A DNA stretch of 64,000 bases from Acidicapsa acidisoli. GTDB taxonomy: Bacteria > Acidobacteriota > Terriglobia > Terriglobales > Acidobacteriaceae. Where the stretch lies: positions 2,275,147 to 2,339,146 of the forward strand of contig NZ_JAGSYI010000001.1 in the NCBI RefSeq assembly GCF_025685625.1, in the 5' to 3' direction. The notes beneath the pieces are model-generated. The model was not told the DNA's origin. It was given only the letters and a program-made list of their open reading frames with translations, and made no database searches. The stretch's first letter is position 1. Every line of letters starts with the position of its first letter. The position numbers and the translations under genes were made by a program. Shown here piece by piece: positions 35,058-54,743 of the stretch.

Positions 35058-35134
35058 AGGCGCGTAGCTCAGTTGGTTAGAGCGCTACCTTGACACGGTA
35101 GAGGTCAGGAGTTCGAGTCTCCTCGTGCCTACCA
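35058..35134 (+). tRNA. tRNA-Val, anticodon GAC
   Basis: A 77-nt cloverleaf: acceptor AGGCGCG/CGTGCCT, D arm with GCTC/GAGC, anticodon stem CTACC/GGTAG around loop TTGACAC (anticodon GAC), T arm with GTTCGAGTC, and encoded ACCA. The 3' half and 10 bp beyond it are repeated at 49849-49914. Confidence 0.95.
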
Positions 35135-35144
35135 TATTTATCAA
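35079..35144. repeat. 66-bp direct repeat, left copy (candidate attL)
   Basis: From AGAGCGCTACC in the tRNA D stem through the CCA to TATTTATCAA. The copy at 49849-49914 differs at 3 of 66 positions. A repeat covering a tRNA 3' end plus a few flanking bases is the usual footprint of integrase-mediated insertion. Confidence 0.8.
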
Positions 35145-35686
35145 GCACTTACAGCAAGTCATTCCGAAGCGTGGGTAGCATTTAGTAGCAAATCGTCGGA
35201 AACCTGCTGGACTTCCCCTTCTTATCGCCATCCTAAAACCGACTGGCCTCGCCGATATTCTGGCGGGATTCGCATGGTCCGCAGAGTTGGGGAGCTGTTG
35301 TGAGTCTCAACGGAACCCCTCCATGAAGTCCACAGTCACGAGCTGGCAACGAAATACATCATCTCAACTCTCTGACTTAATCGCGAACACCAAGCTTTCT
35401 GATTGCAAGAAAGGACGTGTATAGAGCAACAACTAGCCTGCTTTGAACTCGGCTTTATTGTCTATCTCCTTCATGCCCCGCATATTCTCTCAGGCACCGC
35501 TCGAGAAGTGCAGGCCGCGTCCAGTGACACTGCGTAGCTCTGCTTTTTCGGCTTTCAGGAAATCTTTTCGAGAAGAACTCGCAACGAGCACGGGAAAGAA
35601 ATGATTTTCCGAACCTTCCGAAAATGCGCCACTGGGTCTTGCGAGCAGCCATCTCTCGCGCCCTTGCGGGAGGGTGTCCTGAGAGA
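35145..35686. other. 540-bp stretch without a supported gene
   Basis: Short open frames exist on the minus strand, but none resembles a protein I know. The stretch lies between the tRNA and a truncated transposase, just inside the proposed island end. Confidence 0.4.
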
Positions 35687-36439
35687 TCACTCCGGCGCGG
35701 TAATCGGCCCCACCCCCGGCACGGTTCGAAGCCGCCGTAGCCGCTCCTTCAGGAACGGATCACGTTCCAACGAACTGACCAGCGCGTAATCGAGCTTCTG
35801 CGAGCGGCGGATCATCTCCCTGCTCAGCTTCAACAGCGGCCGTATGCTCTCGTCCACCTCTTCGTTGGTCGTCATCAGATCGGCGAAGTAGCCGACTTTG
35901 TGCAGTCGCTGCTTGTTGTAGCTCACTCCGGTCTCCATCAGCAGGCCGGAGATTCGGTTTTTCATCTGCGCCGTCTGCCTGACCAGCAGGTTCCGATAAC
36001 GGAGCGCCCGGCTTCGGTCCCGGATCTCCGTCGAAGCCATATGACACTCCGGCAGGAAATCGCATCGCAGACAGTCAGCGATCTTGCCGGCATCTATTTT
36101 GTCGTTCTTCTTCTTGGCCGCCGCGATCGCCCTCAGCATCACTGGATGCGCGACCTTCACCTTCTCAGCATGAGGAAGCAGGTAGTCATAAATCCACCCG
36201 GTAAAGATCGTCGCTTCCATGGCGATCATGCGGGGCTGCGGCATCGTCTGGATCCAGCCGTCCAGTTCCCGGCGAGTTGATCCGATCTTGCCTTCCTGGT
36301 GCACACGGCCAGCTGCGTCCTTCACGCAATAGCTGATCGTCTTCTTGTGAACATCCAGTCCAATGAAGTACTTAGTCTGAGGAGCCTCCAAGGTCGTTCT
36401 CTGAATCAGCTGGGTGCTGAGTTCAGCGTCTTGCAACAC
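35687..36439 (-). mobile_element. IS110-family transposase, 3'-truncated
   Basis: 250 residues of the N-terminal DEDD-type part: GLDVHKKTI near residue 27, AMEATIFTGWIYDYL near 73, and the Asp pair in KKNDKIDAGKIADCL near 110. The coiled region and the beginning of the C-terminal Transposase_20 domain (RTVPGVGPITA) are present, then the frame ends in PE-stop. Intact IS110 transposases run to about 340-400 residues and need the lost Ser region, so this copy is probably inactive. No terminal repeats are expected or seen. Confidence 0.8.
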
Positions 36440-36594
36440 CTCGTGCTCCTCCTCGACTTAGCATTCAAACAATACGGACATGTGCTCCTGGTCTCAATGA
36501 GCGAGTTGGTGATTTGGCATAAACCGAGAATGGATCGTTGTGGTAGTCCTGACTACATGGAGGATCCGCCCATTCGAGGCGGAACCCCGCTGCC

Positions 36595-39231
36595 TCAGTC
36601 TTCGCGCAGCAGGATCAGGGGATTGACGGATAGCGCACGCTGCGCGGGAATCCACGTAGCCAGCAATCCCAGCGCAGCCATTGCTAGAACAACGCCGATC
36701 AGCACCACTGGATCGCGCGGTGTGGCCTGATAGACGATAGAAGCGAGAACCCTGCCAGCCAGGATTCCAAGCACCAATCCCGCCGCCGAGCCAATCGCCA
36801 ACAGTTTGAACGCACGTCCCAGCGCGGCCTGCAACACTTCCTTGCGTTGTGCGCCGAGAGCCACGCGAATTCCCAACTCCTTGAGCCGCTTGCTCACTGA
36901 GTAGGCAGCCATTCCGAAGATACCTGTGATCGAAAGCATCGCGCCCATTATGCCCAGCACACCCAGCGATACTGTTGCCATGCGCGAGGGGAACAAAGTT
37001 CCCGCCAGTTCTGTGCTCCACGGTCGAATCGCCAGAACCATCCCAGGATCGATGTCCCGAAGCACACTCCTCATGGCCGCGGCAAGTTGCTGCGGGTCGC
37101 GGCTCGACCGGACCACCAGCCATATCCAACTGGCTGGCGATTGTAGGAGGGGAAAGAACATCGCGGGCTTCTGGCCTTCGGTGAGGTTCACGTATTTTCC
37201 GTCTTCGACCAGACCCACCACCCGCACGCGCGTGCCATCTTGCAGCTTGAAATACCGGCCGACAGCGTCCGGTACGGAGCCCAGTACCTTGCTTGCGAAC
37301 TCCCGGTTCACCACTGCCACGCGCGGGGCGTTTGTGTCGTCATGCCATGAGAAGGCTCTGCCCGCCAATAAAGACGTCCCGGATGCGCGGAAGTAGTCTG
37401 GAGATATGTTGAACATATTAGGGTCGGCCGCCGCTTTCGATGGGCTTAGATCCGTGGTTGTGTCGGTATAGACGATCCCTTGCCAAGTACCGGGAGGTTC
37501 TAGCGGCGGATAATTCACCGATCCTACGGAATCAACGCCGGGAATCGCTTGTATGGCATCGATCATGCGCCGTTGCATTGCAGGTACTCTTTCGCCGCTG
37601 TAGCCTGCTGCCGTCAGATCAGTATCCACCAGCATCGCGTTCTGCGGCTCAAAACCGAAGTTACTGTGCATAGAGCGCATGAGTCCACGCACAGCAACCA
37701 TCGACGAAGTGACCAGTACGGCACAGATCGCAATTTGGACGACAAGCAATACGTCTCGCACGGTAATTCGGCGCCCGAACGCGCCTGTCGATCCCGCTTT
37801 GACGATCTCGTATGGATTGGCCCGGAGAATCTGGCGCACGGGAATAATTCCGAATAGGACTCCGCTGACCAACGCCAAGACCAAAGCTACCAAATAAACG
37901 TTAGCATCCGGACTTACCGGCACATGGAGGGGGAATCGCGGAAATGGCTGCCACACGCTCAACCGGCGCAAAAGCAGAATGCTTGCTATGAGTCCTGCAA
38001 CGCCTCCAGCGAGCGAAAGCAGCACGGATTCGGTGAACAGCTGGCGCAAAATGCGATTGCGGCTCGAACCAAGAGCCAGGCGCAAGGCCACTTCGCGAGA
38101 ACGGTCGGCGGCCCGCGCCGCAAACAGGCTCCCCAGGTTGGCACAGGCCGCCAACAGTATCAAACCCGAGAGGAGCATCAACCCGGTGAGAAAAGCCCGT
38201 GTTGGCCCGTTCAAATAGTCGCCATGAAGACCAGGCCGCGCCAGTGTATAAGGGTCATTACTTTCTTCTTTGGGATAGCTTTTTTTAAGATACGAATCCA
38301 CGGAGTTCAGATCGGCAGTGGCCTGCGCCGGAGTGACTCCCGGCTTCAGACGTCCCACCATCTCAAACATCCAACGGATCCCGCGCGCGTTCAATATCGT
38401 CTTGTCGCCGGATAACTGCTCATGGTTCACGATGGGCACGAAGATATCCGACGCGAAAAACAAGACGGTCCCCTGGAACCCTGGAGGTGCCACGCCAAGG
38501 ATGGTGAATGGATGCCTGTTGAGCCGAACAACGCGGCCCACCATGGTGCGATCGTCCTGAAAATGGTTGTGCCAATATGCGTAGGAGAGCACGACAAACG
38601 GCGCGCTGTTTGGGCCATGCTCATCGGAAGCGTGGAAGAATCGCCCAAGGTACGGTTGAATGCGCAATACGTCGAAGTAGTTTCCGCTGGTTTCGTATTC
38701 CCAGACATTGGATGGATCTTTGCCCGTGTCCAGCCCTGCCTGAGAGATGGCCCAGGCAGCCACATCGTCGAAGCTACGATTGCGCTGGCGAAGATCGAGA
38801 TAATCGGGATAGGAGTGGGACCCGACGTCGCTCCCATGTTGGACTACGAAAAGGCTCTCTGCCTGAGGCACATTCAGCGGACGCAGGATGAGCGCATTCA
38901 ATACGCCGAAGACGACTGCGTTGGCGCCGATGGCCAGCGTCAGTGTCAAAACGGCAGTGATAGTGAAGCCGGGAGACTTGCGCAGTTGGCGCAGCGCAAA
39001 TCGCACATCGGCCCAGATCGATTCCAGCGTCGGCCACTGCCACACCTCGCGGCTGCGTTCCTCAAGCAGCATCCGGTTGCCGAAAGCTCGCCGCGCCGCC
39101 CGCGCCGCTTCTTCGGCACTCATCCCCTCACACATCAACTGCTCGGTACGTTCTTCAATGTGGAGGCGAATCTCTTCGGAGAGATCTTCGTAGAGCTTAC
39201 GGCGGCGGAAAATCTGCGGAATCCAGTCCAT
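36595..39231 (-). CDS. Acidobacterial orphan ABC permease (ADOP-type, MacB/FtsX)
   Basis: 878 residues. A soluble N-terminal segment (RRRKLYEDLSEEIRLHIEERTEQL, then GMSAEEAARAARRAFGN) is typical of the large acidobacterial permeases. A first transmembrane helix (FTITAVLTLTLAIGANAVVFGVLNALIL) leads to a MacB-like periplasmic domain. The first FtsX core (ILLAACANLGSLFAARAADRSREVALRLALGSSR) lies near 360-400, and a second periplasmic domain and FtsX core (LKELGIRVALGAQRKEVL) follow. It ends ALSVNPLILLRED. No ATPase lies nearby. The PadR gene 25 bp upstream on the same strand very likely controls it. The substrate is unknown. Confidence 0.9.
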   Translation of the reverse strand: MDWIPQIFRRRKLYEDLSEEIRLHIEERTEQLMCEGMSAEEAARAARRAFGNRMLLEERSREVWQWPTLESIWADVRFALRQLRKSPGFTITAVLTLTLAIGANAVVFGVLNALILRPLNVPQAESLFVVQHGSDVGSHSYPDYLDLRQRNRSFDDVAAWAISQAGLDTGKDPSNVWEYETSGNYFDVLRIQPYLGRFFHASDEHGPNSAPFVVLSYAYWHNHFQDDRTMVGRVVRLNRHPFTILGVAPPGFQGTVLFFASDIFVPIVNHEQLSGDKTILNARGIRWMFEMVGRLKPGVTPAQATADLNSVDSYLKKSYPKEESNDPYTLARPGLHGDYLNGPTRAFLTGLMLLSGLILLAACANLGSLFAARAADRSREVALRLALGSSRNRILRQLFTESVLLSLAGGVAGLIASILLLRRLSVWQPFPRFPLHVPVSPDANVYLVALVLALVSGVLFGIIPVRQILRANPYEIVKAGSTGAFGRRITVRDVLLVVQIAICAVLVTSSMVAVRGLMRSMHSNFGFEPQNAMLVDTDLTAAGYSGERVPAMQRRMIDAIQAIPGVDSVGSVNYPPLEPPGTWQGIVYTDTTTDLSPSKAAADPNMFNISPDYFRASGTSLLAGRAFSWHDDTNAPRVAVVNREFASKVLGSVPDAVGRYFKLQDGTRVRVVGLVEDGKYVNLTEGQKPAMFFPLLQSPASWIWLVVRSSRDPQQLAAAMRSVLRDIDPGMVLAIRPWSTELAGTLFPSRMATVSLGVLGIMGAMLSITGIFGMAAYSVSKRLKELGIRVALGAQRKEVLQAALGRAFKLLAIGSAAGLVLGILAGRVLASIVYQATPRDPVVLIGVVLAMAALGLLATWIPAQRALSVNPLILLRED

Positions 39232-39256
39232 TGGAGATTCCTTTCAGCTGGCCCCA

Positions 39257-39607
39257 TCAACTTGTTGTGACTTTACCCGGGTTCAAGACCAGTGAGATGC
39301 CCTCAAACATGCGCTCAAAGCTGGAAATCTGCTGCTCCAGGCGGCGCAGGCCTGCAGCAGTTATCTGATAGGTTCTCACTCGGCGATTGGTTGAAGAGAG
39401 TTTCCACTCCGCCTTCACCAGCTTTGCCTTCAGCAACCGCTGCAACGCTGGATAGAGCGAACCCTCTTCCACTTGCAGCAGGTTGTTGGACCGTTGCTGG
39501 ATGTGCTGCACCAGCGCATATCCATGGGCCGGCTCACGGCGAAGCGACTCGAGGATCATCATCTCGAGCGCGCCCGGAAACAAATCGCGTGAATTGGTTT
39601 CTGTCAT
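39257..39607 (-). CDS. PadR-family transcriptional regulator
   Basis: 116 residues from the ATG at 39607 (an ATG at 39628 is possible). The winged helix is LFPGALEMMILESLRREPAHGYALV, with EEGSLYPALQRLLKAKLVKAEW and RTYQITAAGLRRLEQQ following. This is the short PadR-s1 type that usually sits before orphan permeases in acidobacteria. The open frame extends to 39724, but the extra N-terminus is the remnant of a decayed tautomerase. A 30-bp dyad overlaps the start region. Confidence 0.88.
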   Translation of the reverse strand: MTETNSRDLFPGALEMMILESLRREPAHGYALVQHIQQRSNNLLQVEEGSLYPALQRLLKAKLVKAEWKLSSTNRRVRTYQITAAGLRRLEQQISSFERMFEGISLVLNPGKVTTS

Positions 39608-39610
39608 AGA

Positions 39611-39640
39611 CTTGTTCACTGCAGGCATAGAGTAAACAAG
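39611..39640. promoter_or_regulatory. 30-bp dyad, candidate PadR autoregulatory operator
   Basis: The arms CTTGTTCACT and AGTAAACAAG are reverse complements but for one base, spaced by 10 bp. The dyad lies directly upstream of the preferred padR start and covers the alternative one. PadR proteins bind dyads and repress their own operons, so this is a good operator candidate. Confidence 0.5.
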
Positions 39641-39689
39641 TATAGAGAGATTGTCAAGGCACACTTCCCATTGTCCGTGAACGACTGAT

Positions 39690-40034
39690 GGGATCAATTG
39701 TTGCCAACAGGCCAACGCGAGCATTGACCTATTCAGATCGATGCCTGCTTCGCCAAGCTTCTCTATCAGGGAGATAACAAGACTCTTTTTCGATCGGTGT
39801 CAGTCCCTGAAGATACGAGCACTTCAATCATCAACATCTGGCAGGTGCGCGACTTGGGCAGTGCTTGATAGTGCAGATCAACCCTGAAGTCGCTTGGTCC
39901 CAACGAAAGGAAACGTTGGAAAAGGTTGTCCTCTGATATCCAGCAGCAATGCTTGCAGCATGGATAGCTCTGGAAAGGCGGTCTTTATCATTGATTGGCC
40001 CATTGGACTTCATCGTTACGGTAAACAAGGGCAT
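39690..40034 (-). pseudogene. Tautomerase-superfamily protein, broken by at least two frameshifts
   Basis: The start MPLFTVTMKSNGPINDKDRLSRAIHAASIAAGY (split here into MPLFTVTMKSN and AIHAASIAAGY) has the N-terminal Pro of the 4-oxalocrotonate tautomerase superfamily. After GGA-TAT the reading frame moves: the next frame gives EDNLFQRFLSLGPSDFRVD and RTCQMLMIEVLVSSGTD, and a third gives LIEKLGEAGIDLNRSM. The three pieces run in the right order for a single family member. The catalytic proline is intact but the chain is not. The 3' end cannot be placed exactly. Confidence 0.75.
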
Positions 40035-40149
40035 AGAACCTTCTGATTGCTGGATATTTCTGCCTCCCGAGATTTCATGAGCTCCCATCTCGGTTGTTGA
40101 TTCTTTATGAGCAGTTCGCAATCCATTGCGGCAGATCTCGAAGCAGGCT

Positions 40150-40974
40150 CTACCGCTCTTGAGGTCTTAAAGGTAATGATCTGTTTTTCGTTAGGCTCAG
40201 CGTGAATACGGTCCTCTCTCGATTCGATTCTTCGAGGCAGACGCTGCCACCGTGTTCTTCAGCTACTCGACGAGCCAAGGCGAGACCAAGGCCTGTTCCG
40301 TTGGGTTTTCCTGCGGTCACGAAGGGCTCGAACAATGTTCTCCGGACAGAGGCAGGTATGCCAGGACCATTGTCCAGGATTGTGAGGTAGATCAGTTCAT
40401 CGACTTCAGTAAGTTGGATCTCCACCTCAGGTACGTGACTTGAGCGTGTCGCAGCTTGGCAGGCATTGAGCAGCAAGTTGTATATGGCACTTTCAAGATT
40501 CCTTACATCCATAACTGCCTTTGCCGGCGGGAACTCGCCGGCTCTGACGAACACGTTCCGCCCGTCTGGATGAAACTTCACTGCCGCAACGGCTTTCTCA
40601 ACAACCATAGAAACACGCTCATAAACCAGCGGATTGTTCCGTCCACTCCCGCCGAATTGCAGTAGTGAATCAATGCGCTCCGTCGTCGCTAGTATTGCTT
40701 CCTGAATTTCGAGCAGAAGATCAGCACGCACGCTCGCACATAAATCGTTGCGCTCGAGAAACTCGGCGTTCGCATAGATCGCCGAAAGTGCGTGGCGCAT
40801 ATCGTGGAATATTGAGCATGCCATGATGCCAATTGCTGACATTCTCTCCGTCTCAATCAGTCGGCGCGGTTCGCCCTTCTGCATCTTGTTTTCCAGATCC
40901 GGACCAAGGCCCTTACGAAACTCGAGGACATTGCCGCCGTCTGAAACTTCTGGCTTCCTAAGGTGCGTTCTCAC
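40150..40974 (-). CDS. Orphan sensor histidine kinase (no sensor domain)
   Basis: 274 residues from a GTG with an AAGGGGG site 4 nt upstream. The dimerisation/phosphoacceptor part has CSIFHDMRHALSAIYANAEFL, with His57 the likely acceptor. The ATPase domain has the N box NLLLNACQA, G1 LDNGPGIP, the F box FEPFVTAGK and G2 NGTGLGLALARRV. There is no transmembrane helix or sensor domain, so it is cytoplasmic. No response regulator is adjacent; the nearest is at 44636. Confidence 0.88.
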   Translation of the reverse strand: MRTHLRKPEVSDGGNVLEFRKGLGPDLENKMQKGEPRRLIETERMSAIGIMACSIFHDMRHALSAIYANAEFLERNDLCASVRADLLLEIQEAILATTERIDSLLQFGGSGRNNPLVYERVSMVVEKAVAAVKFHPDGRNVFVRAGEFPPAKAVMDVRNLESAIYNLLLNACQAATRSSHVPEVEIQLTEVDELIYLTILDNGPGIPASVRRTLFEPFVTAGKPNGTGLGLALARRVAEEHGGSVCLEESNRERTVFTLSLTKNRSLPLRPQER

Positions 40975-41341
40975 TGTTCCCCCTTGTGATCCGGTTCTTG
41001 GTGCTCGCGGCCGGTTGCCTCAAGACAATCGGCGAGGTAAACACAGCCGTCGAAAGGCATCTTCGTGCGGCTCAAATCCAGCGGATGTGTTTTTGTGCCT
41101 CACGCTACGTTGAACTCTTCATAGATGATTCGCGACCGTTATTTATCCTTCTGACCGTGGTATGGACGACTAATCATTGGTCCCAAGCATTTCGCCGATC
41201 TGGCCTGGCGCGAATAAAACCTTCCGATTGGCAAAGCCCTATTGCGGAGGGCTCGTCGATGCGGCCCGAGAATTCTGCTCAACCAGTCACACTGCAAGAG
41301 AAAGGGATTCGGCCCTAAGAATCGAATTGAGGACGGCGGAG
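40975..41341. other. 367-bp stretch without a supported gene
   Basis: Open frames here show no family likeness on either strand. It separates two minus-strand genes and may hold the promoter of the histidine kinase gene. Confidence 0.35.
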
Positions 41342-42214
41342 TTAGCCGCGATTCACGAGCTGAGCTATCACCTCACGAAGCGGCGTCGCTCCATTTACAT
41401 GCTCTGTTCCTGGGACGCCAAAGTGAATCCAACCAGAATTGAATCCATCGACCATCTCCGCTCGAGGCGCCGTTCGTCCCTCTGGCATCCCCTGTGAAAC
41501 CCATAACGTCTCCCATTCCGCCCTGGGAACGGCAATCGCCTCGACGGGACGTCCAACTGCTTCTGCGGAAGCATTTGTTATGTCGAGGGGGCTGTAACCT
41601 TCCGGGCCCGCAACTTCGATATGGCGAATTCCGGTCCAGCTCTGGGTAAGCGTTTGTGCACCCACCTTGCCGATGTCCGCGGTCGCAACGAGGGGAAACT
41701 TTCGGTCAAGCGGATGGAGCTGAAACCGGATCTTACATTCATTCCGCGCGCTCGGTAAGTCACCGGCTGAGTTCTCAATGAACCAGCCGGCGCGCAGAAA
41801 TGCATGAGAGAACGGAAGATCGCTCAACGTCTCTTCGAGGAGATGTGAGCTTGTGATCAAACCCAATCCACTGGCCTGTTCCGCTCCTATGGATGACAGA
41901 TAAACCGCCTTCGACGGCAGAGATCTTGATAGTGCCTCATGCAGGACCTTCAACGTCGCCTTGGTCTCGGCGAAGCCTGGGGCCGGTGCGAAGTTTGGAG
42001 GAACCATGACGAAGACGCCAGCGACACCGGTGAACGCGGTCGTTAGCGCATCCACATCGTCGTAGTCGGCTTTGAAGAGCCCCACACCTCGCCTCTGCCA
42101 CTCCTCTGCTTTCTCGGGATTCCTTACGATCCCTCGAACCTTCTCGCCCTTTGCAAGAAGGGTGCGCGCGACGGCGCCGCCTACCTTCCCTGTGATTCCC
42201 ATGACTGCGTACAT
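41342..42214 (-). CDS. NmrA-like NAD(P)-binding protein
   Basis: 290 residues of the atypical short-chain dehydrogenase group. The nucleotide-binding motif is VMGITGKVGGAVARTL at 4-19, followed by EKVRGIVRNPEKAEEWQRRG and a VFVMVPPNFAP strand. The Tyr/Lys catalytic pair of classical dehydrogenases is absent, which suggests a redox sensor or an NAD(P)H:quinone-oxidoreductase-like activity (as in QOR2). The C-terminal domain has VAGPEGYSPLDIT. The neighbouring genes are relics of other small redox enzymes. Confidence 0.85.
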   Translation of the reverse strand: MYAVMGITGKVGGAVARTLLAKGEKVRGIVRNPEKAEEWQRRGVGLFKADYDDVDALTTAFTGVAGVFVMVPPNFAPAPGFAETKATLKVLHEALSRSLPSKAVYLSSIGAEQASGLGLITSSHLLEETLSDLPFSHAFLRAGWFIENSAGDLPSARNECKIRFQLHPLDRKFPLVATADIGKVGAQTLTQSWTGIRHIEVAGPEGYSPLDITNASAEAVGRPVEAIAVPRAEWETLWVSQGMPEGRTAPRAEMVDGFNSGWIHFGVPGTEHVNGATPLREVIAQLVNRG

Positions 42215-42299
42215 GTTGATGGCTCCTGGTTTCTTTTGTTCTTATGGGTGACACCGCCAATCGAAGCCGCGTCGTCACCAAAAAATCCTATCAAGCCCG

Positions 42300-42479
42300 C
42301 TACTCGGGCAAAGCGATACCGCTGAGGCGCTCGCAGATTGCGAGGAGCCGATCTTGATTCGCAATGTCGTGGGCAGTTGGAAGAGCACCCTTCCTCCTTA
42401 AGTGATAGAAGTACTCTCCAGTGACGAGTGCCTCAGCTTGATCGCTTGAGGAAGCCCAACCTGTGTGCATGTGCCTCAT
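42300..42479 (-). pseudogene. 3' remnant of a short-chain dehydrogenase-like gene
   Basis: The 59-codon frame TGWASSSDQAEALVTGEYFYH...GALPTAHDIANQDRLLAICERLSGIALPE matches the C-terminal end of an SDR subgroup that finishes with a (V/T)(T/S)GxYF-H, QDRLL and SG(I/V)xLP pattern. The frame is closed upstream by a stop and the cofactor-binding part is missing. It ends in TAG. Confidence 0.6.
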
Positions 42480-42691
42480 TCGAGATTAGGGGTTGATCGT
42501 TCTATCTTTTTTCGCTACTGTTGCTTTGAAACTGTTGACTGCGTTGAATACCTGCGATCGTGCTATACGGTGGCCAGCTCAGCAGGAAGATCGGCTATTA
42601 AAGCACTCTTGCAACCGTACCCATGGCTGGGCCACCGCGAAATTCGCAGGTCCTTGTACCTATTCACGGTGAGTCGAAAACTAAAGGCCAC

Positions 42692-43183
42692 CTATGCGTC
42701 ATAACAACCTGTCGATTCTGAGATAGGCGGAACAACGCTGAGACGATCGATCGCATGCTTGACAAGTCCTTGCACCTCAAATGGCGACAGGCCGAGAAAC
42801 TTCGCAACCTCTCTTTCAGGCGAATGGATGATCAATCTCAGCATGAATGCCAGGCGGGGGAGATCGGGCAAGCTACCAATAGAACTCGACTGAAAAAACT
42901 GGTTCTCATCTTCCTCTCTGCGCGCGTCCGACAGTACCGCAATCGCCTGAGTGATGAGAACGTCTCGAACCTGACTGTAAGCGAGTGCCGGAATAGAAGA
43001 TTCAAATGCAGTCACATCGAGCTTCGCCATCGTGCGCGCGAATGTGTCTTCGACGAGCTTGCCATCTGCTACGAGATGCCAAACCAGCGTTGCGAATTCA
43101 TCCAGGTGCTCGAGCAGCAGGAAGCACCATGATGCGCTTTTCGGTGATGGGGTAAATGATACGGATGTGAATGAAGTTGCCAT
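42692..43183 (-). CDS. Sigma-factor-like protein, degenerate
   Basis: 163 residues from the ATG at 43183 (AGGA site 9 nt upstream). Two helical parts resemble ECF sigma regions 2 and 4: a first helix set (FATLVWHLVADGKLVEDTFARTMAKLD) and a C-terminal helix-turn-helix-like PEREVAKFLGLSPFEVQGLVKHAIDRL. The -10-binding aromatic/acidic stretch of typical sigma factors is not evident. The layout parallels the protein at 57432-57986. Whether it initiates transcription is unknown. Confidence 0.55.
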   Translation of the reverse strand: MATSFTSVSFTPSPKSASWCFLLLEHLDEFATLVWHLVADGKLVEDTFARTMAKLDVTAFESSIPALAYSQVRDVLITQAIAVLSDARREEDENQFFQSSSIGSLPDLPRLAFMLRLIIHSPEREVAKFLGLSPFEVQGLVKHAIDRLSVVPPISESTGCYDA

Positions 43184-43241
43184 GGCTGTTATTCCTAGCT
43201 TCGTAATGGGGAGGGCTGAAATCCAATTGACTGCGGAGACG

Positions 43242-43457
43242 TCATGCAGCACGGCCTTCCGAACGGCTGGTCGCCTCCGCAGCACGGCGGTCTGCTCTTG
43301 GTTTTGAGCAGCCGAACCGCTCGAAAACGTCGTTCATCGTATCCTGCAACCGAGTGTTAGGGCGATGCATTTTGCGGGTTGCCTTTGCTATCAGCCGAGT
43401 GAGTAAATAGCGATTCGATGCATGGGCGAGAGCCATAAATGTTAAGTCAGCACGCAT
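43242..43457 (-). CDS. Small conserved-looking protein, possibly RNA polymerase omega-like
   Basis: 71 residues with a strong GGAGGAA site 4 nt before the ATG. The core NRYLLTRLIAKATRKMHRPNTRLQDTMNDVF recalls the NR(Y/F)-L-x7-A-R-x3 region of the omega subunit of RNA polymerase, but this is a weak likeness. The C-terminus is Arg/Ala-rich. It lies just upstream of a sigma-like gene on the same strand. Confidence 0.5.
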   Translation of the reverse strand: MRADLTFMALAHASNRYLLTRLIAKATRKMHRPNTRLQDTMNDVFERFGCSKPRADRRAAEATSRSEGRAA

Positions 43458-43499
43458 GGTGTTCCTCCGGATGCCCGATCTTAGTTGCAGATGTTAATT

Positions 43500-43823
43500 T
43501 CAGGATTGATGATCTGCTATATGACGATGGCAGCCCTTTTTGAGGGGCACCATTATGGCAGGTACGACGAGCGATTTCTGTCGCTGCGCCTGATCTGGAT
43601 TTGCGTGTGTTCGTTCCTTGAGCCACGATCGCACACTGAACGCGTATACGCCGATGCAAAACAGGTTCGCGGGAAAAAGGCCAAGCTGTGACGTTCGCAA
43701 TCCAATTACACAAACGATCAAGCTGTTGGCTGTTGCGACAAGGAGTCCGATCCGGGATTTTCGTGCGAGCAGTATTGTCGCTAGGACGGTGAGGAAACAA
43801 GAGAGATAATCCAAATGGAACAT
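43500..43823 (-). CDS. Small membrane protein (three hydrophobic helices)
   Basis: 107 residues. Hydrophobic segments at about 3-20 (LDYLSCFLTVLATILLA), 26-44 (GLLVATANSLIVCVIGL) and 49-66 (GLFPANLFCIGVYAFSV), then a charged tail. The GLFPANLFCIGVYAFSVRSW stretch recalls PnuC/YgjV-like proteins, too weakly to name. The ribosome-binding site is poorly spaced, so the start is uncertain. Confidence 0.5.
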   Translation of the reverse strand: MFHLDYLSCFLTVLATILLARKSRIGLLVATANSLIVCVIGLRTSQLGLFPANLFCIGVYAFSVRSWLKERTHANPDQAQRQKSLVVPAIMVPLKKGCHRHIADHQS

Positions 43824-44055
43824 CGCGAAAACCGAACCTCCAATTGAAGCTTCACCCGATTCAGAGAATCGATGATTCGTGATTCTCTGATTTGTCCTCC
43901 GTGCTCGATACTGCTGAAGTGACTATGAAGGAAGACTCGGACGAGTGCATCCCGCTAAGGAAGGTATTTTCAACGCTAATGATGGATGGGTATCGGATAC
44001 CACTATTTAGGGGGATATGATGCCCAGGCATCGGGACAATTATTTGCGTTCAATC

Positions 44056-44532
44056 TCAATCAAGTGGAGAATTTTTCTGAGAATCATCGACGAGTTGAAC
44101 GCGGCCTTCAGGAATAATGATTTCGCGACGACCGAAGAGACGCGCATCAAGTGAAAAAGCGCCCGGGCCAAGCAAAACAAGCGCGGCGGATATCGCAGCC
44201 AGATTGAATGCAGTTAACGCACTGATGTGGTTGTTCGCTTCAGTCATCAAAGACGGCGAAACGCCCGTCATAAGATAACCAACTGTTGCCGCGGCGCTTG
44301 CAACGGGTGTGAGAAAGCCGACGAAAATCGCTGCTCCAACAGCGATTGCGAGCGATCCAACGACCCAAGCGCTAATCGAATGACCGTTGGGTCCAACGAG
44401 CGCTTCAATTGCGTAAATGATTGCATTGACAGCAACAGTAAGCCGCAGAAAGATGAGGCCGATGCCTGGCCAACCCTCCGGGAAGCTGGAAAAGAGCCTT
44501 TGCAGCCGGTGCCTCCTCAGGCGCAAAGACAC
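44056..44532 (-). CDS. DoxX-like membrane protein
   Basis: 158 residues with four hydrophobic helices: GIGLIFLRLTVAVNAIIYAIEAL, VVGSLAIAVGAAIFVGFLTPVASAAATVGYL, ISALTAFNLAAISAALVLLGPG and a following part. It begins LRRHRLQRLFSSFPEGWPG, as in acidobacterial DoxX-like proteins. GPGAFSLDARLFGRREI ends the membrane part. It probably sits in the inner membrane; a redox role is suggested for the family. It lies downstream of the two-component system on the same strand. Confidence 0.72.
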   Translation of the reverse strand: MSLRLRRHRLQRLFSSFPEGWPGIGLIFLRLTVAVNAIIYAIEALVGPNGHSISAWVVGSLAIAVGAAIFVGFLTPVASAAATVGYLMTGVSPSLMTEANNHISALTAFNLAAISAALVLLGPGAFSLDARLFGRREIIIPEGRVQLVDDSQKNSPLD

Positions 44533-44635
44533 GCCAGAAGAAGACTAGCCTATTTCGCTGCGAAGTGGACCCCCAGAACGAGTGCTTTTTCTACACCACT
44601 TGGAAACTCGAAAGCACTCGGAAATGCAGGTAAAA

Positions 44636-45265
44636 CTAGAGATGTATGATCCCGCGTCTAATTCCGACAGCGACGGCCTCGGTGCGATCGCTTGCGCCCA
44701 GTTTTTCCATGATGTGCTTGATATGTCCCTTCACCGTTTCTTCAGAGATGAAAAGGAGCGCTGCGATGTCGCTGTTGCGATTTCCCCCCGCGATCTTCTG
44801 AAGGACCTCAACCTCTCGCTTGCTCAATGTTTCATCTCCAATATGCTCGATGAGGTGAATTGCGACCTCGGGAGGGATTTGTTTCTTCCCGGCATACACA
44901 TTGCGGATCATATCTACGAGCTGCTTTCTGGGCATGTTTTTGAGCATGTAACCTTGCGCTCCCGCCCCCAGCGCGCGCTGAATCTCGGCGTCTCCTTCAA
45001 ACGTCGTTAGCATGATCACTCGGGCATCTGCAAACTCTGTGCGAATGGCAAGCAGTGCGTCGATGCCCCCCATATCCGGCATCCGGACATCCATGAGTGT
45101 CACGTCGGGCTGATGTTCACGAAATCCCTGAATGGCTTCGTGTCCAGTTGATGCCTCTGCAACCAATTGCATGTCAGATTCATTCCTGATGACGGCCGCA
45201 ATGCCTTCCCTCATGAGAGGATGGTCGTCAACGCAGAAGACTCGAATCCTTGGGGTAGCGCTCAT
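44636..45265 (-). CDS. NarL/FixJ-family response regulator
   Basis: 209 residues. The receiver domain (3-120) has the acidic pocket VDDHP, the phosphorylation Asp in VTLMDVRMPDMGG and the Lys in LKNMPRKQL. The LuxR-type helix-turn-helix is LSKREVEVLQKIAGGNRNSDIAALLFISEETVKGHIKHIMEKLGA. Its start overlaps the end of the propeller kinase gene by 4 nt, so they form a cognate pair. Confidence 0.94.
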   Translation of the reverse strand: MSATPRIRVFCVDDHPLMREGIAAVIRNESDMQLVAEASTGHEAIQGFREHQPDVTLMDVRMPDMGGIDALLAIRTEFADARVIMLTTFEGDAEIQRALGAGAQGYMLKNMPRKQLVDMIRNVYAGKKQIPPEVAIHLIEHIGDETLSKREVEVLQKIAGGNRNSDIAALLFISEETVKGHIKHIMEKLGASDRTEAVAVGIRRGIIHL

Positions 45266-48200
45266 TTATGTACTCGCTTCGCTTTGTCATGCTTCGGTGT
45301 CTCGAGCCTCTCTCGGCTGAGCCAACGGAACCACTGCGATATCGGGCCATTCGAACCTTTTTCGAATGCGATCGTGCCGGGAACCGTTAAGTCTATTTCA
45401 GTTCCTGCGCCAATGCGGCTTCGAAGTCTTAGATTAGCGCCAATTCTTTCGGAGCGCTCTCGGATGCCGGCGAGTCCCCAGTGCCCCTCACGACCTGTAT
45501 GCAGCACTTGAGGATCGATTCCACGGCCATCGTCGCGCACCAGCACTTTAAGATGTCTACTCGCATATTCTACTTCGACTTCGATGCGGTTTGCCTGTGC
45601 ATGCATAAATGCATTCAATAAAGCCTCGCGGCCAATGCGATAGACTTCATCGCGGATCAGCGGCCGCAATGGACGCGTGACACTATCAACGATAACGCGG
45701 AAATCAGTTTTGTCGTCCAGGGGAAATTCCTGTCGTAGTCGCGAGAAGGCAGTCTCAAGGCTTTGGTTGCCCGATTCCGTTGTGCGTAACCCACGCAGCG
45801 TATTTCTTCCTTCTTCAGTGACCGTACGCATCAATTGCAGGACCCGTTTCAAGAGAGGCTTGGTCGGAGAGTCCTCCGGGAGTTGGTCTTCAGCTACATC
45901 AAGCTGGAGAGAGGCGCTCAGGACACCTTGCAGCAGTGTGTCATGCAATTCCTGCGCAATGCGCGTACGCTCGGCGAGCCGTTCTTGGAAGCCAACATTC
46001 AATCGTTTCGTCAATTGGTGAATGCGTAAGTGATAAATGGCGAGGATCGTCAGGCAACACCCTGCAAGACAAGTCACTCGAAACCACCACGTTTGCCAGA
46101 ATGCAGGTTCGATCAGGAAAGGGACAGAAGTCTCCGGACCATTCCAAAGACCGACACTGTTGGAGGCAACAATACGGAAGAGATATGTGCCAGGGCCCAG
46201 GTTTTTATAGACAACCTGCCTTGACGCAACGATATCGCTCCAACCTTGATCGGAACCATCGAGCTTATAGCGAAAACGGATGCGTTCTCGCGCAGCCAAG
46301 TTCATATTGTCGTAATTCAAGGTAATGCTCTGAATTCCAGAGGGAATCTGGATGGGGTTCTGCGCATTAACCTGATTTCCGCCAGCGGACATAGATTCGA
46401 TTCGCACTGCGACTGGGATCGAATTTCTGGAGATGACGATCGGATCGGCCATGGACAAACCCGACTTAAGCGAAATCCAGATGCGTCCTTCAGGATCAGC
46501 AACTACGGTGCGGTCGCGACTCACGCCTTCCACCCCCTGGAGGCCGTCGTAGATTCCATAGCTTTGAACATCGGTATCAGAGAGCAATCCGCTCAACAGC
46601 CCGTCCCTATTGACGCGAAGTACGTGATCTGAGGTGGTGAACCAGAGGGAACCCATCCCGTCTTCCGCAACTCCGAAGATCTGCTCCCGTAATGCCTCAG
46701 GCAGCCTCGGTGGAACTTTGATTTTTCCGGAGGATATGTACGCCAGACCGCCGGGAGTTACTACCCACACCACATGTTTTGTGTCTTCAAAGATTGTTCT
46801 TACTATTGACGATGGTAGGCTGTCGCTAGCTGTGTAAATCGTCCAATGCCGATTTGAGAACGAAGCTAAACCGCTGGGGGTAGCCAACCATGTTGTCCCA
46901 TCGAAGCCGTCGACTATGGAATTGACAGCATTCGAGGGGAGTCCACTGGAGTCCGAATAATTGGTAAATTTCCCGCCATTCAATCTGCTTACACCAGCAC
47001 TTACAGTCCCAGCCCAGATCGTCCCATCGCGTTCACGGTGCACGGAATAAACGCTGTTCTGCGCAAGGCCATCCGCCTGCGTATAGGTGTGGGCCGTAAA
47101 TGAATCGCCCTTTCCGGCCAGCACTGTGAGACCGCCATGTTGCCGGCCGACGCAGATTTCACCGTCGCTACCGCTAACGGAATACACAACATCGTGTTCC
47201 AGTCCATCGAGAGTTATATGACCGACTTGCCCTCCCTTCATCCAGTAGAGGCCACCCGAGAGCGGCGCAAACCAGATCCGGCCCGTGGAGTCCGGGTAGA
47301 CTGAGCCAATCCCTGTTGACGGAAGACCGTCAGAAGTCGAATAGGTTGTAAACATTCCATTTCGCAGCCGCTCGACTCCTCGCGAACCGCCAAACCAAAT
47401 ATCTCCGTCGAGATCTTCATAGATTGCTGTTACTTCAAACCCAGGCTTTGGGTTGAGCAGGTCAAGCGAAACAGCGCCGGATGGAGTAATGCGCAAGATG
47501 CCATGGTTCGTTCCAATCCAGATGTTTAGGTCACGATCTCTGGCCATCGCCAGAATCTGTAATTGCTTCAACGAAGAAGTCAAGTTAAGGGTGGCCAGTA
47601 CGCCACCCTCCCACAAATGAATGCCGTTGTCGGTTCCAATCCATAAGCCGCCGGTGTCTGCGGGCAGAAGAGCATTGATCTTCGAATCCTTGAGCTCCTG
47701 CGCAACTGTGGAAATGTGTCTCTGACTCAGACGAAAGAGACCGTTATCTTGTGTGCCGAGCCAAATACTCCCGTCTCGCGTCGCAGCCAGGGAGATGACA
47801 ATACCGGGATTTTGCTCTGCACTGACTATTGTCTCCAGGCGTCCTCCCTCATATCGGAATGTCCGATCCCCGAGTCCGGAGAGAATGACGCGCCCCTTGT
47901 CGTCGGAAGCGGTCGCTGTAAAGGTGATGTCCTGAAGATCGAATCTTGTGTATGGATCCTCAAACTTCCGGTCATGATAAAGAAGCATGCGGGGACCTTC
48001 GAGACGAATCCACAGATTCCCGCTGGCATCGGTAACGAGGCCGCGCACGGGACTAATCGGAGGCGAATCTGGAAGAGGCCGCTGAATCAAAAGGAAATTG
48101 GACCCGTCGAATCGAACCAGACCTCTTTCGGTTCCAATCCACAAATAACCATCGGCCGATTGGCGAATGGCGTAAATCCTTCCTCCAATAAATCCTTTAT

Positions 48201-48327
48201 CTTCGCCCCACTTGTCATGTACGTATTGTGAGATTCTCCGGGTGGGGTCTAATCCAAAAGCAGTATTCACAAGACATAAGAGCGCGATCCCATTTATGAG
48301 TCCTTTGCGTAGCCGATGCCTCTGCAT
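45262..48327 (-). CDS. Two-component sensor kinase with beta-propeller sensor domain
   Basis: About 1021 residues from the ATG at 48327; a TTG at 48360 would add 11 and overlap the next gene. An N-terminal signal sequence precedes a periplasmic sensor built from two-component-regulator propeller repeats (for example DGYLWIGTERGLVRFDG, GGLWIGTDNGIHLW, RIWFAPLSGGLYW), which form two seven-bladed propellers. A Y_Y_Y domain (YKLDGSDQGWSDI), one transmembrane helix and a HisKA_3 kinase (RIAQELHDTLLQGVLSAS; GHWGLAGIRERSERIG) follow. This is the hybrid-like layout used for polysaccharide sensing in other phyla, with the regulator encoded separately. Confidence 0.93.
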   Translation of the reverse strand: MQRHRLRKGLINGIALLCLVNTAFGLDPTRRISQYVHDKWGEDKGFIGGRIYAIRQSADGYLWIGTERGLVRFDGSNFLLIQRPLPDSPPISPVRGLVTDASGNLWIRLEGPRMLLYHDRKFEDPYTRFDLQDITFTATASDDKGRVILSGLGDRTFRYEGGRLETIVSAEQNPGIVISLAATRDGSIWLGTQDNGLFRLSQRHISTVAQELKDSKINALLPADTGGLWIGTDNGIHLWEGGVLATLNLTSSLKQLQILAMARDRDLNIWIGTNHGILRITPSGAVSLDLLNPKPGFEVTAIYEDLDGDIWFGGSRGVERLRNGMFTTYSTSDGLPSTGIGSVYPDSTGRIWFAPLSGGLYWMKGGQVGHITLDGLEHDVVYSVSGSDGEICVGRQHGGLTVLAGKGDSFTAHTYTQADGLAQNSVYSVHRERDGTIWAGTVSAGVSRLNGGKFTNYSDSSGLPSNAVNSIVDGFDGTTWLATPSGLASFSNRHWTIYTASDSLPSSIVRTIFEDTKHVVWVVTPGGLAYISSGKIKVPPRLPEALREQIFGVAEDGMGSLWFTTSDHVLRVNRDGLLSGLLSDTDVQSYGIYDGLQGVEGVSRDRTVVADPEGRIWISLKSGLSMADPIVISRNSIPVAVRIESMSAGGNQVNAQNPIQIPSGIQSITLNYDNMNLAARERIRFRYKLDGSDQGWSDIVASRQVVYKNLGPGTYLFRIVASNSVGLWNGPETSVPFLIEPAFWQTWWFRVTCLAGCCLTILAIYHLRIHQLTKRLNVGFQERLAERTRIAQELHDTLLQGVLSASLQLDVAEDQLPEDSPTKPLLKRVLQLMRTVTEEGRNTLRGLRTTESGNQSLETAFSRLRQEFPLDDKTDFRVIVDSVTRPLRPLIRDEVYRIGREALLNAFMHAQANRIEVEVEYASRHLKVLVRDDGRGIDPQVLHTGREGHWGLAGIRERSERIGANLRLRSRIGAGTEIDLTVPGTIAFEKGSNGPISQWFRWLSRERLETPKHDKAKRVHK

Positions 48328-48334
48328 CACGATT

Positions 48335-49423
48335 TCACGGAAGGAATTCGAATTTTTCAATCACAACCTCGACTGGTTGTTGAGGTGAAGTCTTCGTAGG
48401 TCGATAACTGTACAAGCCCATGTGAACCGTTTCCTTGGCAGGAGTCGGAACTCCCGAGGTAAAGATGTGTTCACTAATGGTCGCGGCTCCGGGGCCTATC
48501 CCCGATCCGCGGACAGTCTTAAAGGAAACGCGTCCGGACTCCCAACGTAACATGTGGGTCAGCACTCCGGCCGGGGCCGTGAATCGAGAGACGTTTTCAG
48601 GGACATAAAAAGGTTGGACAACATATTGCGCATTCTTGCTGTCTGTAATACCCCAGCGGCTCAATTCGATGTCAAGTTCACCAGGGATGTCATCCGTTCG
48701 AAAGTCATCATTTGTATATAACCCCAGAGCAGCAGATGGGCCAAAATGACCGGTATCTTGAACGACAAAGATGTACGAACCATAACCAAGACTGCGGGTC
48801 AGATTAACCTCGGCACATGTCCATAGGCCATCGTGCTCCTCCATGCGAAGATGCAGATAGCCGTTCTTATCGGTCCATACATTCGAGGGATCGTAGGAGT
48901 TGGGTTGCCCTCCTCGGTCGCTCGCCGCGTTACGCACGCTCCAGTCATATCCACTAAAGTGGATGACCTTAGAAACAATCGGTGCAGCAGGCATGCCCTT
49001 CGAAGTAGCGATTGCGACCACGCCGTTGCCTTGTGCGGGCAAAGTCGCAACCTTGGTTGCAGGGTGAAAGCCGGGCTCAACTAAGATCGCTGCATAATCG
49101 GTACCGAGATGGGTCGCGTTTCTCCATGTCGAATCGGGTTGAATTTTCGTAAAAGGCTGATTCGCAAAAGGTTGAATCCACCAAATGTCGCTACGTGCGT
49201 AAAGTACGATCTGTTGACCGGGTTTCACGCCGCTTGCCCGTCCTTCAATAAAATCCAGTTGTACCGGACCTCCAGGATTGGCGGCGGGGACTAGCGTGAT
49301 TTGAACGTTTGGTTTGGGAGGCACCCTATTCGAATTGCAGGCAGAGAGAAGGACGCTCACGAACAGGAGGAGTCTATTCGATCGATGCTTTTTGATGGAG
49401 GAAGTGCAAGGGGAAGGTTTCAT
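48335..49423 (-). CDS. Lipoprotein with concanavalin-like (GH16-like) C-terminal domain
   Basis: 362 residues. The signal peptide ends in the lipobox LLSAC near residue 29. Residues of about 40-150 form a beta-sandwich (SGVKPGQQIVLYARSDIWWIQPF). From about 170 on, FSGYDWSVRN, NGYLHLRMEEHDGLWTCAEVNL, GYGSYIFVVQDTG and GELDIELSRWG follow the strand pattern of GH16-like lectin/glucanase folds, with ELDIELSRW in place of the ExDxxE catalytic motif. It is probably a surface glycan-binding or -cutting lipoprotein. It is 8 bp upstream of the propeller kinase gene, as if its ligand is what that kinase senses. Confidence 0.7.
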   Translation of the reverse strand: MKPSPCTSSIKKHRSNRLLLFVSVLLSACNSNRVPPKPNVQITLVPAANPGGPVQLDFIEGRASGVKPGQQIVLYARSDIWWIQPFANQPFTKIQPDSTWRNATHLGTDYAAILVEPGFHPATKVATLPAQGNGVVAIATSKGMPAAPIVSKVIHFSGYDWSVRNAASDRGGQPNSYDPSNVWTDKNGYLHLRMEEHDGLWTCAEVNLTRSLGYGSYIFVVQDTGHFGPSAALGLYTNDDFRTDDIPGELDIELSRWGITDSKNAQYVVQPFYVPENVSRFTAPAGVLTHMLRWESGRVSFKTVRGSGIGPGAATISEHIFTSGVPTPAKETVHMGLYSYRPTKTSPQQPVEVVIEKFEFLP

Positions 49424-49848
49424 ATTCCTCCAAATGTTAGCAATATTTGACTGTTAGCCCGCTATCGCACCACGTTTTTGGATTGTCGTAGCGGTGTTCT
49501 CAGACGTCAGTCATATATATATACGCTTCGACTGGGAATACCAATGCTGATCTATGGAGAAAACAATAGCGGTGTTCTGATGATAATTCCACATCCCGCT
49601 CGGACATCCAGCTCACACAAAGGCCGGATACATTCGCGCAGACCAACAAGTCATCCGCATTTTTCGCTTGCAAAACGGCGACGGACCATACATCTGGATC
49701 GCCGACCAGCTGCGAAACCGTGAAGATGCCGACGTGCTTCGTCTCGAAATCGCCAACTGAAGAAGAAAAGTCCCACCTGCCCCGAAAGGCGACTTCCGTG
49801 TAAATCACTGTCAAGGGAAAGGCACGAAATTTCTTTGAGCGCGCTCGG
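49424..49848. other. 425-bp stretch at the right end of the island
   Basis: Mostly without recognisable genes. A run of TA repeats lies near 49512-49520. A plus-strand frame at 49587-49760 reads protein-like (for example RIFRLQNGDGPYIWIADQL) but lacks a start codon and could be a gene fragment. Confidence 0.35.
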
Positions 49849-49914
49849 AGAGCGCTACCGCGACACGGTAGAGGTCAGGAGTTCGAGTATCCTCGTGCCT
49901 ACCATATTTATCAA
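49849..49914. repeat. 66-bp direct repeat, right copy: tRNA-Val 3' remnant (candidate attR)
   Basis: Repeats 35079-35144 with three differences (two at the start of the anticodon loop, one in the T arm). The 5' part of the tRNA is absent, so it cannot be a functional tRNA gene. The identity continues 10 bp past the CCA. Confidence 0.82.
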
Positions 49915-50190
49915 CTACTTAGAAGTTTTGACGATCGAACTGCTGTACATCGGTTCGATAACTATCTTCCGCACCGCAGTTTCAGCCCGCCAATTTCGAT
50001 CCATCAGCGCGTCCACGACCCGGCTCCGTCTCTTCTTGGCCGTGAAGCGCCAAGTGTAAACGTTCATGGTTGTTACGTTAGCGTGCCGCATCAATTCCCG
50101 CACCACTTTGACGTCGTCTTCATCTGCCTGAGGCAAAGTGGAATAGGTGTGCCGAAAGGTGTGGAATCTAACCCACTTTGATTCTGTTGA
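49915..50190 (-). pseudogene. Tyrosine recombinase (integrase) C-terminal remnant
   Basis: The minus-strand frame gives RFHTFRHTYSTLPQADEDD followed by VVRELMRHANVTTMNVYTW. This contains the H-x-x-R box (HTFRH), the third catalytic His (LMRHANVTT) and the nucleophilic Tyr (NVYT) of phage-type integrases. Nothing upstream of the FHTFRH block looks like the catalytic N-terminal part, so the first Arg box is lost. It abuts the tRNA-Val remnant, the normal place for an integrase gene. Confidence 0.75.
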
Positions 50191-50586
50191 TAGATAAGAA
50201 CGTTCCGACTTGCAGATCGCCCGCCCAGAACCGCAAGAATGATGCGAGCCGAAGTTGGAACGCGGTTTGGCTTGTTGGCTTCAATCGGAGATCACGCCTG
50301 GACAGACCGGCGGACACTAGATGACTTCCGTTATCTTTCCGGAAGCACACAGCGACTCTAACGTGCAGAGTTTAGCTGTCACGTGCCGTGGGGGATGAGC
50401 TCAAAGCGGAGTTTTCGCCCCTCGCGTCCAAATTCCAAACAATCATGAATCAGAAGTGCGGTCAGGCTCGCATGGCTGCCGGTCCGGATTCCGCTTGATT
50501 TACATGGCGGTGGCTTGCGGCGGCGTGTTTACTATACAATGCGATGCCATCGGGCGGGATGGGCGTAGTCCGCGAATCCCTCCGCC
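50191..50586. other. 396-bp intergenic stretch before the fumarate reductase/SDH operon
   Basis: No supported gene. A 60-codon minus-strand frame is not protein-like. It probably includes the promoter of the downstream operon; no distinct operator was found. Confidence 0.4.
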
Positions 50587-51384
50587 ATGGAGGGACTCGT
50601 GTCAGCTCCCGATGTTGTCTGGAAGAACGGCAAATTTGGCCAAACATCAAGGCGCGACGCCTGGTGGCTTTCTCCGGTGGCAGTCTTTCTAGGTTTCGCC
50701 TCGTTTCTGGTCTATGCGAACTGGGCGGCGTTCCAGAACAGCCACTACACCTACGGACCTTATATCTCACCGTTCTATTCCCCCGAGCTTTTCGGCAGTT
50801 CCCCGCACGCCTTGTTTGGCCCGAAACCGAGTTGGTATCCGAACTTTCTACCCTTTTCCCCGGCTCTGTTCATTCTCTGGATACCTGGCCTGTTCCGCTT
50901 GACCTGTTACTACTACCGCGGCGCGTATTACAAATCGTTCTGGGCCGATCCACCGGCCTGTGCGGTGAGCGAGCCGCGCAAGAGTTATCTGGGGGAACGA
51001 ACCTTTCCGCTTATTCTGCAGAATTTTCATCGCTACTTTCTGAGGCTCTCGTACATCGTCTGGGGCTTTCTCGTCTACGACGCCGTGAAGTCGTTCTTCT
51101 TTCCCGAGGGATTTGGGATCGGGATTGGCAGTCTCGTTCTCGTCGTGAATGTCGTACTCCTTGGCGGATATGTATTCGGGTGTCATGCGTTCCGGCACCT
51201 GATCGGTGGGACATTTGACCGTATTTCGAATCACCCTGTACGACACAAGCTCTACGATTGCGTAAGTTGCCTGAACGCGGGGCACAAGAAATGGGCCTGG
51301 GCGAGCCTGTTTTGGGTTGGGCTTTCCGATATCTACATCCGCCTCTGCTCGATGGGTATCTGGCATGACTGGAGAATTCTCTAG
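50587..51384 (+). CDS. Succinate dehydrogenase/fumarate reductase membrane anchor subunit
   Basis: 265 residues with about five hydrophobic helices (VAVFLGFASFLVYANWAAF, FSPALFILWIPGLFRLTCYYYRG, FLRLSYIVWGFLVYDAVKSFFF, GSLVLVVNVVLLGGYVFGCHAFRHLIGG, WASLFWVGLSDIYIRLCSMGIWHDWRIL). Histidines in FHRYF, CHAFRHL and GIWHDW are candidates for haem axial ligands. Long anchors of this type occur in the actinobacterial Sdh1-like complexes, not the short SdhC/SdhD. The start may be the GTG at 50599, which has GGAGGG 4 nt upstream. The stop overlaps the next start region without a gap, so the operon is tight. Confidence 0.82.
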   Translation: MEGLVSAPDVVWKNGKFGQTSRRDAWWLSPVAVFLGFASFLVYANWAAFQNSHYTYGPYISPFYSPELFGSSPHALFGPKPSWYPNFLPFSPALFILWIPGLFRLTCYYYRGAYYKSFWADPPACAVSEPRKSYLGERTFPLILQNFHRYFLRLSYIVWGFLVYDAVKSFFFPEGFGIGIGSLVLVVNVVLLGGYVFGCHAFRHLIGGTFDRISNHPVRHKLYDCVSCLNAGHKKWAWASLFWVGLSDIYIRLCSMGIWHDWRIL

Positions 51385-53199: not shown

Positions 53200-53213
53200 C
53201 GGGAGACGAATCG

Positions 53214-53951: not shown

Positions 53952-53986
53952 CTGAAACTCGATGCTCAATGTGCCGTGGAGATTTG

Positions 53987-54502: not shown

Positions 54503-54670
54503 GCTCCTCTTCCTCCTCGCTCGAATTTCCCTGACATCGTGAATCTTGCGAACCAAGCCACATTCTCCTGCCTCGCAATTCCACCTAGCGGCCAGATCAA
54601 AAGCCGATGCGCCTGCATCCAACCGCACGTCAAGCTCAACTATGTCGGGGATCAGCAGTACACGGTAGTC
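54503..54670 (-). pseudogene. Decayed second copy of the SDH iron-sulfur subunit (N-terminal part)
   Basis: The minus-strand frame reads YRVLLIPDIVELDV, then AFDLAARWNCEAGECGLVRKIHD, in register with the intact subunit's [2Fe-2S] domain (APDLAVRWNCKAGKCGSC). The third Cys is lost (CGSC to CGLV) and the rest of the gene is missing, replaced by the TPR-like gene. It is in-frame with that gene only by chance. Confidence 0.65.
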
Positions 54671-54743
54671 GGCTGCCGCTGCAGATTGCTGATCGCCCAG
54701 GAAACTCCTTGCGCCGCGCTTGTGAACGAGCCTTCGGTCCTGT

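Follow-up and report, generated by a model that had tools for sequence, protein, structure and literature searches.

Arrays in which ICEs, IMEs and CIMEs stand in tandem have been explained by a three-step accretion at the 3' end of the target gene, with the ICESt1-related elements of Streptococcus thermophilus cited as examples (PMC5704250). The target 3' end is repeated at each boundary of such tandems, the newest element lies beside the target, and the older elements have decayed to remnants with att sites and without integration genes. The same arrangement was observed at the locus described here in Acidicapsa acidisoli, where two islands, A and B, follow a tRNA-Val(GAC) gene, and the A/B tandem fits the published three-step model. 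It differs from the tandems of PMC5704250 in its acidobacterial host, in its tRNA-Val(GAC) target, in that B has kept the tail of an integrase only, and in that no functional element is left. The ssrA islands of Dehalococcoides (PMC3146451) likewise stand in tandem between repeats of the 3' end of a single RNA gene, carry catabolic cargo and in some cases have no integration module; they involve a serine recombinase, ssrA and a 20-bp repeat, whereas the present array involves a tyrosine integrase, a tRNA and repeats of 46-73 bp. Islander-type tRNA islands with an anticodon-centred attP (PMC4383910) share with this locus a regenerated tDNA and a displaced 3' fragment in the same orientation, and the match in kin of this array begins at the anticodon loop, although island A, with no integrase inside, would fail the Islander integrase filter.

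The window, i.e. the whole stretch of 64,000 nucleotides of DNA that was analysed, contains a single tRNA gene according to ARAGORN, and the 3' part of this gene recurs downstream. The array is made up as follows.

35058-35134, plus strand: intact tRNA-Val(GAC) (ARAGORN), apparently restored by integration and serving as attL of island A; its left flank is collinear in seven same-genus genomes
35079-35151, plus strand: repeat copy 1, the tRNA 3' part with about 17 bp downstream, 93% identical over 73 bp to 49849-49921
About 35135-49859, no strand: island A, with att copies at both ends; no relative carries it at this place
49849-49921, plus strand: repeat copy 2 (att2), attR of A and attL of B, 63/66 to the tRNA
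About 49910-68985 (in-window part 49910-64000), no strand: island B, presumably the older, ending at the third att copy; its content is not common to relatives here
49972-50181, minus strand: relic of a tyrosine integrase, C-terminal part only (HxxR box to Tyr), oriented towards the att copy (PF00589, E 3e-5)
Window-equivalent 68986-69035 (G000:C1:2344132-2344181), 5 kb past the window end: third copy (att3), more decayed (E 3.5e-7)

The original prediction had noted a duplicated tRNA-Val 3' end with three changes, and this was borne out: the 66 bp at 35079-35144 (the last 56 bp of the tRNA and 10 bp downstream) match 49849-49914 at 63 positions, and the similarity was extended to 73 bp by BLAST. 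When the genome (7.1 Mb, 18 contigs) was queried with the tRNA, the Val(GAC) form of the 3' half was found at only three places, namely the tRNA, 49849 and the third copy, the other matches returned being other tRNA genes. No tRNA was called by ARAGORN at 68986-69035, where the fragment is closer to Val(GAC) than to the other tRNAs tested. The three copies are direct and collinear, and over a 50-bp core they score 50 (tRNA), 47 (copy 2) and 41 (copy 3), so that the copies farther from the tRNA are the more diverged, which is the pattern expected of accretion at this gene. Outside the three copies, the highest score in 35-125 kb was 27/50, and shuffled sequences peaked at 27-28; additional att copies between 69 and 125 kb were rejected, none standing above shuffle level.

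The cargo of island A includes the following.

35687-36439, minus strand: truncated IS110-family transposase of 250 aa, DEDD domain only (PF01548, E 6e-17)
36595-39231, minus strand: MacB/FtsX permease (PF12704, PF02687)
39257-39724, minus strand: PadR regulator (PF03551)
41342-42214, minus strand: NmrA-type NAD(P)-binding protein (PF05368)
44636-45265, minus strand: LuxR-type response regulator (PF00072, PF00196)
45262-48360, minus strand: beta-propeller (Reg_prop) sensor histidine kinase (PF07494, PF07495, PF07730)
48335-49423, minus strand: 362-aa protein beside attR of A, matched by no Pfam family

This inventory agrees with the original prediction, which had placed in the interval a truncated transposase (an IS110 protein with only its N-terminal DEDD domain), a PadR/permease pair (PadR and a MacB-type permease by Pfam), a sensory system (histidine kinase and response regulator genes) and no intact integrase. 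No integrase was found in 35135-49849, and an integrase HMM run with all filters off gave no match either next to the tRNA (3 kb) or next to the third copy, so a relic of an island A integrase was rejected as a candidate. The IS110 fragment lies near the place expected for A's integrase. T4SS and transfer genes gave no matches in A, and no T4SS genes were found in 30-125 kb.

The gene for the 362-aa protein is rare: 25 genomes yielded five copies, of which three lie in regions downstream of tRNA-Val. A 361/362-aa gene with a Reg_prop kinase adjoins the right att in both islands (48335-49423 in A and window-equivalent 67786-68871 in B), and G004 has another such pair, the third, at a distance of 10 kb from tRNA-Val. 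The 362-aa protein of A is 43% identical to the homologue beside att3 of B and 55% identical to that of G001, the nearest informative relative; the Reg_prop kinase of A is 44% identical to the kinase adjoining att3 in B. The module was rejected as a sign of tandem duplication of A and B, since A's copy is nearer to that of G001 than to that of B.

Two parts of the array had been missed by the original prediction, the third copy beyond the window and the integrase relic just outside copy 2. The latter lies 60-270 bp beyond att2 with its C-terminus towards it, is 68% identical over 65 aa to the intact tRNA-Val(GAC) integrase of G007 (E 6e-19), and matches positions 324-389 of the 400 in the integrase HMM (E 1e-15). 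It groups with the tRNA-Val integrase of G007 and a tRNA-Ala integrase of A. acidisoli itself (G000) with support of 98/95, while filling only 17% of the alignment columns; because it clusters with integrases of both kinds, close integrases serve different tRNAs. Two gene clusters of B within the window are of note.

50587-53951, plus strand: second succinate dehydrogenase (SDH) operon (cytochrome b, SdhA, SdhB)
59407-63589, minus strand: OEP outer-membrane efflux protein, MFS transporter and membrane-fusion-type protein of 381 aa, the last assigned from its sequence (PF02321, PF07690)

The SDH operon had been taken as the ancestral flank of a single island, and this claim was not supported. 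Its cytochrome gene (50587) is absent from all 14 same-genus genomes. The SdhA encoded in the island shares 73-75% identity with genes of another family (f2) that stand at unrelated loci, compared with only 32% with the other, core SdhA of this genome, a kind found across the genus. The operon is thus best read, from these sequence comparisons, as an imported second copy carried inside B and not as chromosomal flank.

On the left side of the tRNA, gene order over 25.6-34.9 kb is conserved in seven genomes of the genus. On the right side, no relative is collinear at this place with any part of the 67 kb that were compared first, and G004 has only single paralogues, e.g. of the sensor module. 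In G001 the left flank and the tRNA are the same as here, followed by 11.95 kb of unrelated DNA and then by restored synteny, which restarts at window-equivalent ~118.9 kb and runs for about 20 kb. Parts of the intervening 50 kb (69-118.9 kb) have homologues elsewhere in G001 and G004, at loci unrelated to this one. The expected empty site, with the pgsA side of the tRNA joined to the SDH side, was thus not recovered; tRNA-Val joined directly to the right flank of A. acidisoli was found in no relative examined, and G002 versus G011 makes no more than an approximate empty/filled pair. Composition supports a foreign origin, GC3 being 0.69 in the left flank but 0.59 for A and 0.60 for B; it does not fix the boundaries, because the stretch at 69-118.9 kb is similar (0.61), and GC was dropped as not useful for placing them.

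Taken together, ICE-type accretion followed by decay into two tandem CIME-like islands is very probably the history of this locus. A single island of 14.8 kb with the SDH operon as its ancestral flank, as originally predicted, would explain why the interval has the two best repeat copies at its exact ends. It would leave unexplained the third copy and the relic beyond the interval, the absence of the SDH cytochrome gene from 14 same-genus genomes, the affinity of SdhA to another family, and the restart of G001 synteny only at 118.9 kb, and is considered very unlikely; at least two islands stand in tandem. Less likely still is that the copies are degenerate duplicated tRNA genes formed with no integration. 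Similar fragments would result from duplication if the 5' half were then lost, a point of reasoning that no tool result favours, but the fragments at tRNA-Val in other genomes begin at tRNA position 33, in the anticodon loop, and continue into common downstream sequence, att2 begins at position 22, in the D-arm, and integrases adjoin the fragments in a fixed orientation. Integration into tRNA-Val in a site-specific manner, the central claim of the original prediction, is accordingly backed by the core copies, the canonical orientation of integrase and att in other genomes, and the relic.

Arrival of both islands at once, either as a pre-accreted composite or by mobilisation of B's element together with A, deserves somewhat more weight than these two models, though it too appears improbable. 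Transfer of an accreted CIME-ICE tandem has been documented (PMC5704250), and the shared 361/362-aa gene and Reg_prop kinase beside the right att of each island (43-44% identical) would agree with it. The strongly different decay of att2 and att3 (47/50 versus 41/50) suggests different ages, however, and the 362-aa gene of A is nearer to its G001 homologue than to that of B.

For the preferred history of accretion and decay, we infer an order of events, a cause of the integrase losses and the mobility that may remain from the att copies, the relic, the architecture that recurs elsewhere, the intact kin and the foreign SDH operon. Element B would have integrated first, with its integrase beside the tRNA. 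Element A would have integrated later at the restored tRNA and displaced B, together with its integrase, by one att copy in the downstream direction, giving the order tRNA - A - att2 - int - B - att3. A would then have lost its integrase, perhaps by deletion involving the IS110 copy, while the integrase of B was presumably cut to its last ~70 codons and att3 drifted; mobility of the leftovers, if any, would depend on help in trans. As no trace of an A integrase is left, A could have arrived in another way, and as no transfer genes are left in A or B, their origin as ICEs rather than IMEs is suggested by kinship only.

By the usual definitions the array is known in kind and ordinary, and on our best reading it is its extent and its flank that have now been corrected. 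As in tRNA islands, the intact tRNA stands at one end with a same-strand 3' fragment at the other, and the insertions are absent from the same place in relatives, whose left flank is common to seven genomes of the genus. Since an integrase inside or overlapping the island is missing from A and reduced to a C-terminal relic in B, the islands are termed decayed remnants rather than functional tRNA-island members. An att copy occurs at every junction, as in accreted tandems, with integrase sequence beside its own att at copy 2 (the relic) and none at copy 1; intact parallels were found in G043 and at tRNA-Ala of G000. The lack of integrase and T4SS genes together with the retention of both putative att sites would be that of a CIME. 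The array does not classify as an ICE, which is defined by integrase and conjugation genes together, no T4SS gene being present in 30-125 kb; relatives at the same site carry such genes.

The tRNA-Val(GAC) gene is a recurrent target in Terriglobales (Acidobacteriota), the order in which the window was placed by the named genomes that share its tRNA-Val end. In relatives, the minus strand carries an integrase of ~390-430 residues, with its C-terminus towards the tRNA and at a distance of tens to hundreds of bases downstream of it. Among exact-core loci from public genomes, searched within 1.6 kb with an HMM of such integrases, a signal was found downstream of 28/71 tRNA copies versus 1/73 upstream, and downstream of 14/34 att-only (tRNA-fragment) copies versus 1/30 upstream; the integrase was on the same strand in 29/29 tRNA loci and 14/14 att-only loci with a signal. 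In G043 (contig PKUV01000099) the tRNA-Val is followed by an integrase, VirB11, VirD4, VirB6, VirB10 and VirB4, then by a tRNA fragment (attR) 59.7 kb away and a second integrase fragment that runs to the contig end; this arrangement is the window's tandem in a younger state. The 59.7-kb ICE (L265-L268) also carries a SIR2-HerA pair, an LmuB-like ATPase and a type II methyltransferase, probably as defence cargo. The same tandem pattern was seen in JANXZM010000091 (L213, G047), with tRNA, 2.4 kb, fragment and integrase relic. A prophage origin was set aside, the kin at tRNA-Val carrying T4SS genes instead.

Eight of ~26 truncated integrases beside tRNA-Val seemed to be broken at model positions 315-325, and a second group begins at 206-234, near the presumed first Arg box. 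Those starting at the HxxR box are L156, L158, L188, L194, L217, L243 and the relic at window position 50181. These starts possibly reflect either alignment pinning or a real breakpoint preference; a recurrent breakpoint before the HxxR box is not claimed, as pinning of local alignments to conserved boxes explains much of the pattern.

Intact integrases of this family in A. acidisoli itself adjoin tRNA-Ala(GGC), tRNA-Asp(GTC), tRNA-Asn(GTT) and tRNA-Met(CAT). At tRNA-Ala(GGC) (G000:C5:274526-281681, L293) an intact integrase and ~4 kb of cargo are followed by an att copy, 5.7 kb from the site, and by a second intact integrase, which makes this a live-looking tandem. At tRNA-Asp(GTC) (G000:C4:40868-110322, L295-L298) an intact integrase, VirB4, VirB10, VirB11 and ParB homologues precede an att copy 69 kb away, likely a 69-kb ICE. 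The tRNA-Val integrase of G013 is very similar to that of L277 in G000 (branches of 0.07 each), near which no tRNA was called within 1.5 kb; the pair may represent target switching or a tandem position.

Much smaller units were observed in genus g14, where 46-bp copies of the tRNA-Val 3' end bound ~2-kb units in two genomes, with boundaries at the following reverse-complement positions.

G027 C27 (L076): 1830, 3778 and 6103
G027 C7 (L075): 33771 and 36147
G035 C185 (L106): 5561 and 7635

The G027 units examined hold one ORF each, whose core end is RHS-associated (TIGR03696) and whose C-terminus differs from unit to unit. A conserved 163-bp arm precedes thirteen att copies in G027 and G035, and was found in only three of 200 genomes of the order, all of genus g14. 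The units look like a non-autonomous array of rhs-tip cassettes mobilised by a tRNA-type integrase. A wider proposal, speculative and rather unlikely as it stands, is that the tRNA-Val(GAC) 3' half serves the whole order as a cassette platform, where non-autonomous islands such as A and B would keep their att ends and be moved in trans by sister integrases at other tRNAs of the same genome; g14 would be the extreme, with 2-kb single-gene rhs-tip cassettes, each of a 163-bp arm and a 46-bp tRNA core, in an integron-like array on a tRNA fragment. These cassettes are the most unusual side finding and may deserve a study of their own.

For A. acidisoli, the annotation is corrected in that a succinate dehydrogenase with the appearance of a core enzyme is best read as mobile cargo. 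For the order, a family of ICE-type tyrosine integrases seems to use the tRNA-Val(GAC) 3' half as its attachment site, and the hotspot seems undescribed, no published description of it as a recurrent ICE site in Terriglobales having been found in the open-access literature. As intact, truncated and remnant stages occur together at this hotspot, the decay of ICEs into cargo islands could be studied directly there, and so could the switching of integrases between tRNAs.
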